NCBI GenBank assembly: GCA_029247365.1
Contig: JAQWLJ010000033.1
Coordinates: 62,001 to 126,000 of the forward strand
DNA: 64,000 bases
Source of the DNA: Acidimicrobiales bacterium
GTDB taxonomy: Bacteria > Actinomycetota > Acidimicrobiia > Acidimicrobiales > Aldehydirespiratoraceae
Direction: 5' to 3'
Of this stretch, positions 103-1,388 are shown in pieces. Under the pieces are notes generated by a model. That model worked only from the letters and a program-made list of their open reading frames with translations. It was not told the origin of the DNA and did no database searches. Position numbers and translations under genes: made by a program. Position 1 is the stretch's first letter. Each line of letters opens with the position of its first letter.

Positions 103-180
103 CTCTCCCTCGGGGGGTTGGCTGGCAAAAGGGTACTGAAAAGCGCAGAACCCCCCGAGCCACGAGGGCACGAGGGGTTT
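103..180 (-). promoter_or_regulatory. leuA attenuator: mutually exclusive RNA hairpins next to the ribosome binding site
   Basis: Read on the minus strand, CTCGGGGGGTT (159-149) is perfectly complementary to AACCCCCCGAG (119-109), an 11-bp stem with a 29-base loop. The 3' arm shares its last GAG with the leuA Shine-Dalgarno stretch GAGGGAGAG (111-103), so this hairpin should hide the ribosome binding site. Upstream, AACCCC (179-174) can pair with GGGGTT (154-149), which would break the first hairpin. No U-tract follows, so I infer translational rather than transcriptional attenuation. A ribosome stalled on the Leu codons of the upstream peptide would plausibly set which fold forms. Confidence 0.7.
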
Positions 181-205
181 GGCGGGCGCCGTTATGGGCG
201 CTCGC

Positions 206-244
206 CTACACGAGAAGAAGCAGGAACGAACGATGGTGCTCCAC
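206..244 (-). CDS. leucine-rich leader peptide (12 aa) controlling leuA
   Basis: A 13-codon frame GTG...TAG on the minus strand reads MEHHRSFLLLLV, with four consecutive leucine codons (CTG CTT CTT CTC) just before the end. It is too short for the ORF track. Its position between a good promoter and the hairpin in front of leuA is the classic arrangement of an amino-acid attenuator. The GTG lies about 8 bases after the putative -10 hexamer, so the peptide may itself be translated from a leaderless mRNA. The identification rests on codon content and position; no homology is needed. Confidence 0.75.
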   Translation of the reverse strand: MEHHRSFLLLLV

Positions 245-252
245 GAGGTAAC

Positions 253-280
253 ACGCTAATCCCACCCTGGCGATTGTCAA
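253..280 (-). promoter_or_regulatory. promoter of the leuA leader transcript
   Basis: On the minus strand a consensus -35 TTGACA (280-275) is followed, after 16 bases, by TAGCGT (258-253), a TANNNT-type -10. Transcription would start near 247-244, at or just before the GTG of the leader peptide. This is the best -35/-10 pair I found in the window. Confidence 0.65.
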
Positions 281-320: not shown

Positions 321-506
321 TCAAGGCTCGACGACGAGTCCGTCGGCGAGCAACGCCGAAGTCCCGTCGGGATTCGTCACCACCACGTCCCAGCGTCGAA
401 CCTTCCCAAGCCCGCCGGCCTTGACCCGTATGGCAGCCGTGCTCATCTCACCGTGACACCAGATCCGGTCAGAGTCATCGACCCAGCCACGCTCCGAGGC
501 GGACAT
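321..506 (-). CDS. hypothetical 61-aa protein or remnant, TIG/IPT-like sequence
   Basis: A short frame follows the alpha/beta hydrolase gene by 33 bases on the same strand, and ends before the leuA leader promoter. The C-terminal part (WDVVVTNPDGTSALLADG) has the beta-strand pattern and VTNPDG turn seen in TIG/IPT immunoglobulin-like domains, but a full TIG domain needs about 80-90 residues. The open frame continues upstream of the ATG to the hydrolase stop codon, which lies in the same reading frame. No signal peptide or clear ribosome binding site is visible. It could be a small real protein, the remnant of a larger one, or chance. Function unknown. Confidence 0.3.
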   Translation of the reverse strand: MSASERGWVDDSDRIWCHGEMSTAAIRVKAGGLGKVRRWDVVVTNPDGTSALLADGLVVEP

Positions 507-539
507 CGTCGGGCTGGGCGCGAACAGGCTCGAGACGTC

Positions 540-1388
540 TTAGTTGAGGCCAGCCAAGAAGTCGGTGACGGCGGCACGGAAAACGTCATTCTTGTCGCCC
601 GCCACCATGTGAGCGGCGTCGGCAACATCGACGTAGCTCACATCGGGAACCTGGGCAAGGAAGCGACGCGCCCCCTCTTCGGAGACGACGTCACTCATGC
701 GGCCGCGTACCAGGAGCTTGGGCACGTCAATCCGGTGCATGCATTCGGTCAACATGACTGGGTCGAACATTTTCGCCGGGTCGCCTTGAGGATCCGGCAT
801 CAGAAAGGCCGGATCCCAGTGCCAATACCAGCGGCCGTTTCGCTCTCGCAGGTTCTTTCGCAGCCCGGCAGGGTCGATGGCGCGGTCGGCGCGCGGGGCG
901 TACGCCGCCACCACTTCAGCAGCCTCTTCCAGGGATCCGAAACCCGTCTCGACGTGGGCCCGGAGGAAGTCGCCGATGCGATTGGTTCCAGTGCGTTCCA
1001 TTTCTGGAACGATGTCGACCAAAATCAGCCCACGGCCGCTGCCCGGCCGCAGGCCACCCATGGCGCGGATGGCGGTGAGTCCACCGAGTGATGCTCCGAC
1101 CACTACCGGGTCGTGCCCGAGTTGATCGAACACCGCAACCAGGTCACCGGCGTAGTCATCGAGACCGTAGGAACCCGTCGGGTCCCAGGCACTTTCACCG
1201 TGACCCCGTAGGTCGACTGTGATCGCACACCAGCCGGTCTCGGCGACGACAGCGGCGGCCCGACCCCACGAATGCCGGGTCTGGCCGCCACCATGCAGGA
1301 ACACCACCGGCGGATCTGTCGAGTCGCCGTACCGGTCGGCCGTCAACGACAGCGCACCCGCGGAGAAGGTGATCGTCTCCGATTCCAT
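540..1388 (-). CDS. alpha/beta-fold hydrolase
   Basis: A 282-residue hydrolase with the standard alpha/beta layout: an HGGG oxyanion motif near residue 32, DLRGHGES around 59-66, the nucleophile elbow GASLGG with Ser near 100, and a late Asp and a His in AAHMVAGD. The cap region holds a Trp-rich stretch (WYWHWDP) that may shape an aromatic or acyl pocket. The ATG at 1388 is chosen because it removes an atypical N-terminal tail of the 293-aa ORF and leaves a divergent promoter region before the next gene; 1421 is the alternative. Substrate unknown; ester, epoxide or C-C bond hydrolases share this fold. It is divergent to an amidohydrolase-like gene across a palindromic site. Confidence 0.8.
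   Translation of the reverse strand: MESETITFSAGALSLTADRYGDSTDPPVVFLHGGGQTRHSWGRAAAVVAETGWCAITVDLRGHGESAWDPTGSYGLDDYAGDLVAVFDQLGHDPVVVGASLGGLTAIRAMGGLRPGSGRGLILVDIVPEMERTGTNRIGDFLRAHVETGFGSLEEAAEVVAAYAPRADRAIDPAGLRKNLRERNGRWYWHWDPAFLMPDPQGDPAKMFDPVMLTECMHRIDVPKLLVRGRMSDVVSEEGARRFLAQVPDVSYVDVADAAHMVAGDKNDVFRAAVTDFLAGLN

Follow-up and report, generated by a model that had tools for sequence, protein, structure and literature searches.

A candidate attenuator family with stop-anchored hairpins upstream of branched-chain amino-acid genes in the Acidimicrobiia

How might a member of the Acidimicrobiales adjust the expression of its leucine genes? At one end of the window (the whole stretch of DNA that was analysed, 64,000 nucleotides from a 3.1-Mb assembly whose nearest named relatives are Acidimicrobiaceae/Acidimicrobiales), a short open reading frame rich in leucine codons precedes leuA, which raises the question of whether ribosomes read this frame and how such reading could reach the gene. 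The leuA product was identified as 2-isopropylmalate synthase (NCBIfam TIGR00970, 800.6 bits for a cutoff of 697.4). A first-pass annotation of the region had proposed that a probably leaderless leader peptide controls leuA translation through two mutually exclusive hairpins. It left the strand unstated; all features are on the minus strand (Table 1).

Table 1. Features of the leuA upstream region, in window coordinates.
Feature	Positions	Strand	Basis and remarks
-35 element TTGACA	275-280	minus	sequence; TTGAC kept at the same position in close relatives
-10 element TAGCGT (TANNNT)	253-258	minus	16-nt spacer from the -35; leader start codon 8 nt further on
Leader ORF VEHHRSFLLLLV, 12 codons	206-244	minus	GTG 244-242 to TAG 208-206; transcription start predicted
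Four putative sensing Leu codons, CUG CUU CUU CUC	212-223	minus	sequence, relatives
Hairpin P1, arms 206-197 / 190-181	181-206	minus	5' arm opens on the G of the TAG stop
Hairpin P2, arms 179-167 / 161-149, terminator-like	149-179	minus	comparison with relatives, permutation
U-rich tract UUCUGCGCUUUUCA after P2	137-150	minus	degenerate here; clear U run in many relatives
Segment AACCCCCCGAG able to pair with 159-149, beside the leuA RBS	109-119	minus	lineage-specific
leuA Shine-Dalgarno region GAGGGAGAG	103-111	minus	sequence
leuA 5' end (2-isopropylmalate synthase), ATG 98-96	1-98	minus	gene continues past the window start

The leader peptide and its promoter

We compared the region with leuA upstream sequences of relatives, taken from whole genomes and from named records. 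The short peptide with four consecutive Leu codons was confirmed by this comparison: an in-frame ATG or GTG start precedes the Leu run in all 90 distinct leuA loci that have such a run. Together with the pile-up of -10 elements described below, this recurrence places the predicted leader ORF far beyond chance. In a few relatives (L021, L024, L127), a Leu-run leader was not recognizable. The leader Leu codons are biased towards the rare codon CUU, which makes up 41% of them as compared to 7% in the leuA genes. Next to the leuA promoter, on its upstream side, positions 321-540 (minus strand) hold a 61-aa ORF that, by eye, looks like the C-terminal portion of a PaaI-like thioesterase and is possibly a gene remnant.

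The promoter had been described as consensus, which holds for the perfect -35 element; the -10 element, however, fits only TANNNT, and a strict sigma-70 consensus promoter/terminator scan of the focal region gave no match, so that the promoter is best called partly consensus. Its spacing proved more informative. Among the 90 distinct leuA loci, TANNNT hexamers occur 70 times at 6-10 nt ahead of the leader start versus 6 times across all gaps of 15-49 nt, and only 5 of the 90 leader starts carry a Shine-Dalgarno (SD)-like 4-mer. In a larger set, a gap of 6-10 nt again separates the best -10-like hexamer from the start in most leuA leaders (106/119 for type-2 and 33/45 for type-1 leuA) and in all seven cimA leaders, but the gap is 24-38 nt in the five ilvB leaders. 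The ilvB leaders (L201, L203 and L204) thus differ from the leuA and cimA versions in having what appears to be about 20 nt of 5' leader.

A -10 element placed for initiation at the start codon, in the absence of an SD sequence, is what is expected of a leaderless ORF. Given this tight spacing, the start codon of most family members would therefore lie 0-3 nt from the predicted mRNA 5' end, and these leaders are likely leaderless or nearly so. In the focal locus, transcription probably starts on, or no more than about 3 nt from, position 244, the first base of the leader GTG, as judged from promoter spacing. The earlier placement of the GTG at or within 2-3 bases of the 5' end is thus borne out as a prediction, with a -10 spacing that is conserved order-wide. 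Leaderless loading seems to be common in the element family without being required for the design, since the ilvB versions appear to be leadered.

The suggestion that a leaderless sensing ORF would be an unusual way to load the ribosome was overstated. Indeed, the LeuL1, LeuL2, IlvL and TrpL leaders of S. lividans (upstream of leuA, leuS, ilv and trp) are transcribed leaderless (PMC8079986). Leaders of leuA and ilvB are also known in C. glutamicum (PMC4046766), and the same paper cites evidence for an ilvB leader peptide without a ribosome binding site (RBS). The leaderless reading of the leuA leader is therefore likely right but not novel in kind, leaderless leuA leader peptides having been published. 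The present leader shares with LeuL1, LeuL2 and IlvL a peptide that is leaderless (here by prediction) ahead of leuA, leuS or ilv genes; it differs from LeuL1, which has no typical terminator and continues for longer after its Leu run (tail SCRGEGL), in that the run ends beside the stop codon and P1 starts on the stop. Leaderless small ORFs with end-product codon runs near the stop are also found in the cysteine-rich uORFs of mycobacteria (PMC4633059), where, however, the amino acid is cysteine; conserved terminator hairpins were not reported for cys operons (PMC1262725).

Two hairpins downstream of the leader stop codon

Two independent nested hairpins, P1 and P2, account for the region between the leader and leuA. 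In 66 of 80 loci, the first base of P1 is also the last base of the stop codon, and in 57 of the 80 P1 abuts P2 with zero gap. Cognate arms pair far better than permuted arms (z = -13.5 for P1 and -15.7 for P2; about -13 to -31 for P1 and P2 across sets), although these z-scores ignore shared ancestry and are inflated as a result. Direct support comes from compensatory changes in the stems, visible by eye (GGCGAGCGCC/GGCGCUCGCC, CGGCAGCAGC/GCUGCUGUCG and GGCGAACGC/GCGUUCGCC). We relied on arm-wise permutation tests because the MAFFT alignment puts some P2 arms in the wrong place, so that the covariation table understates the support. Judged from these comparisons, both predicted hairpins covary and P1 is among the most conserved features of the leader. 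The focal P1 has one A-C mismatch; P1 is perfect in close relatives.

The first-pass annotation had seen no U-tract at its second hairpin, the one overlapping the RBS. The competing hairpin, however, is itself a conserved terminator-like stem, P2, that is followed by U residues: TTTTTTGTTT or TTTTTCTTTT in many relatives, and an interrupted version, UUCUGCGCUUUU, in the focal locus. By its form, P2 with its U-tract is an intrinsic terminator, and in many relatives it has the textbook shape of one. In several relatives (L010, L013, L016, L019 and L026), the U-rich tract after P2 can itself give rise to a third small hairpin (CGUGC-loop-GCACG).

The focal sequence by itself could suggest a different fold. 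The 3' arm of P2 (159-149) is able to form 11 perfect pairs with 119-109, next to the leuA RBS, at -25.4 kcal/mol, as compared to -20.4 kcal/mol for P2, and the full-length focal fold prefers this RBS helix. In such a scheme, translation of the leader would select the helix and the leuA RBS would be hidden or exposed accordingly; one sister species shows partial complementarity (L005, z = -1.5). Across loci with an identifiable leuA RBS, however, the helix has no cognate advantage over permuted pairings (z = -1.1 for all loci, +0.3 for the family). Of 68 such loci, the focal one alone stands clearly above its shuffles (z = -3.1), and it is also the sole locus in which the helix displaces P2, with a P2 probability of 0.03 versus at least 0.88 in the other 67. 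Moreover, P2 is local and would fold first during transcription. An RBS-covering helix exclusive with another hairpin, the hallmark of an RBS-sequestering translational attenuator, is thus found in the focal genome only: it is a lineage-specific potential and not a conserved mechanism, and translational attenuation is an unlikely explanation of this leader. The proposal of translational control is not supported, and that of two mutually exclusive hairpins stands in part: alternative pairings do exist on paper, including one beside the RBS, but the conserved P1 had been missed and the RBS helix is peculiar to the focal genome. Likewise, relatives, in which the first-pass annotation had suggested looking for covariation as a check of its model, provide the leader ORF and compensatory changes for P1 and P2 but none for the RBS helix.

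Leader codons match the downstream gene

Searches with a covariance model built on P1-P2 gave a single strong match in the focal genome (E = 1e-17), and matches in 187 of 296 genomes of the class Acidimicrobiia. We classified 123 elements by their downstream gene, with the gene families checked on representatives: 62 precede type-2 leuA, 46 type-1 leuA, 7 cimA, 5 ilvB and 1 leuB, which leaves 2 unassigned. Ahead of the stop, leuA elements read LLL or LLLL, those of cimA (citramalate synthase, an enzyme feeding isoleucine) III, those of ilvB (acetolactate synthase) LVVLI or LVLIL, and the leuB element IVVI. Outside the class, other genomes of the phylum carry the stop-P1-P2 unit before leuS (Leu codons), ilvB (LVLI or VLVI) and leuB (Val/Ile codons). 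This agreement between the codons and the downstream pathway is, in effect, a codon swap carried out by nature, and no other argument speaks as strongly for a leader ORF that would be translated and read.

Several individual loci deserve mention. In other Acidimicrobiia, cimA is preceded at seven loci (L198, L200, L202, L205, L271, L276 and L283) by the stop-P1-P2 element, whose leader there has three or four Ile codons. Outside the class, leuS-like genes at L290, L300 and L303 have Leu-rich leaders such as MRWNLLLR. At L308, a similar element lies before a serine-glyoxylate-type aminotransferase, with a peptide (VKLTRRSNK) in which sensing codons are not obvious. Weak matches to the model were also examined and rejected: those in the focal genome and in Streptomyces-sized genomes are not leaders, and those in other actinobacterial genomes are ordinary terminators.

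An Rfam 15 scan gave no match at gathering score, with only sub-threshold chance matches in the focal region and none in related loci, and none of the papers searched described leaders of this kind for Acidimicrobiia or ahead of cimA.

A possible mechanism and its relation to known leaders

All together, these results make it probable that the leader acts by ribosome-mediated transcription attenuation and belongs to an Acidimicrobiia-wide family that serves branched-chain amino-acid genes. The leucine response, termination and the coupling of P1 to P2 are what we infer from sequence. As promoter spacing suggests, RNA polymerase would start at or a few bases from the leader start codon, so that ribosomes would load on a leaderless ORF and decode the three to five end-product codons just before the stop. 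When charged tRNA is plentiful, the ribosome would reach the stop codon, where a footprint of the usual size would extend over the 5' arm of P1, roughly 10 nt long; when charged tRNA is scarce, it would stall upstream, leaving that arm free if it stopped at the first Leu codons, and P1 could form. P2 and the U-rich tract would end transcription before leuA under replete conditions and be read through under starvation. This reading is favoured by the Leu-run ORF in 90 leuA loci, the tight -10 spacing, the covariation of P1 and P2 and their fixed positions relative to the stop, as well as by the clear U-tracts of many relatives, the pathway-matched codons and the CUU enrichment. Against it stand the interrupted U-tract and mismatched P1 of the focal copy, and an antiterminator that we did not detect.

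An antiterminator was looked for in several ways. When loci were folded with the ribosome masked at four positions, P2 remained the predicted structure in nearly all of them, whether the ribosome was absent, stalled or at the stop. Among many segment combinations, no arm-to-arm alternative beat permutation, except for a weak signal between the 3' arm of P1 and the U-tract (z = -4.0 in the larger set, but +1.2 in a smaller set with a slightly different tail definition), which may reflect shared ancestry. Across 137 elements, the interval expected to hold an antiterminator is folded no more stably than shuffled sequence (mean z = -0.02). The leader thus has two marks of a classical attenuator, a predicted short ORF with an end-product codon run (90 loci, with codons that track the gene) and a Rho-independent terminator before the gene (P2, conserved, its U-tract interrupted in the focal copy), but no ribosome-controlled antiterminator exclusive with the terminator was found. 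As our tests yielded no antiterminator, we do not file the leader as a classical attenuator, even though it would work like one.

This lack of an antiterminator would also be compatible with P2 being a constitutive terminator, or a plain structural barrier, that sets basal leuA expression next to a leader peptide devoid of any sensing role. We consider this improbable: it leaves unexplained why the codons track the pathway, why their distance from the stop is fixed, why a rare codon is preferred and why the stop codon serves as the anchor of P1. More speculatively, and with considerable doubt, the attenuation reading can be extended to a family of two-hairpin attenuators, spread over the whole class, that operate without an antiterminator: the ribosome at the stop would melt P1, the presence or absence of P1 alone would set termination at the abutting P2, and the leaderless ORF would be recoded for Leu, Ile or Val according to the gene.

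Could P1-P2 instead be the LEU element described in other Actinobacteria? Seliverstov et al. (2005, PMC1262725) placed actinobacterial leuA leader peptides in this element, which has a pseudoknot, a base stem between the Leu codons and the SD sequence and no terminator, and which is perhaps protein-bound; ilvB leaders were described there with terminators. The gene, the kind of leader peptide and the phylum are the same, and in both cases a conserved RNA structure lies between a Leu-run leader and leuA. Here, however, two consecutive post-stop hairpins and a U-rich tract take the place of the pseudoknot. The Leu run pairs with its own SD sequence less well than in permuted combinations (z = +4.6), none of the segments tested covaries with the P1 loop, and P1 sits after the stop codon, whereas in Frankia, whose loci showed a pseudoknot-type layout in our comparison, the structure is within the ORF. 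With neither the Leu:SD base stem nor a conserved pseudoknot found, the focal leader is not filed as a LEU element, and identity of the two is very unlikely.

The attenuation reading has parallels in the ilvB leaders. Experiments support attenuation at M. tuberculosis ilvB1 (PMC13236596), and this leader and other actinobacterial ilvB leaders (PMC1262725) share with ours a uORF with branched-chain amino-acid codons, a Rho-independent terminator and a proposed control by ribosome position, at the stop or at the regulatory codons; an antiterminator was proposed there, whereas none was found here. On the other hand, leader-peptide mutations in S. coelicolor leuA, as cited in PMC1262725, were inconsistent with classical attenuation, which counts against attenuation.

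Leaderless sensing ORFs would be the usual state of the leucine and isoleucine versions of the element, the ilvB versions appearing leadered. The apparent lack of an antiterminator raises a testable question, namely whether a hairpin anchored on a stop codon can directly control a neighbouring terminator. A largely uncultured actinobacterial class would thus have one recodable RNA cassette, absent from Rfam, before its branched-chain amino-acid genes.
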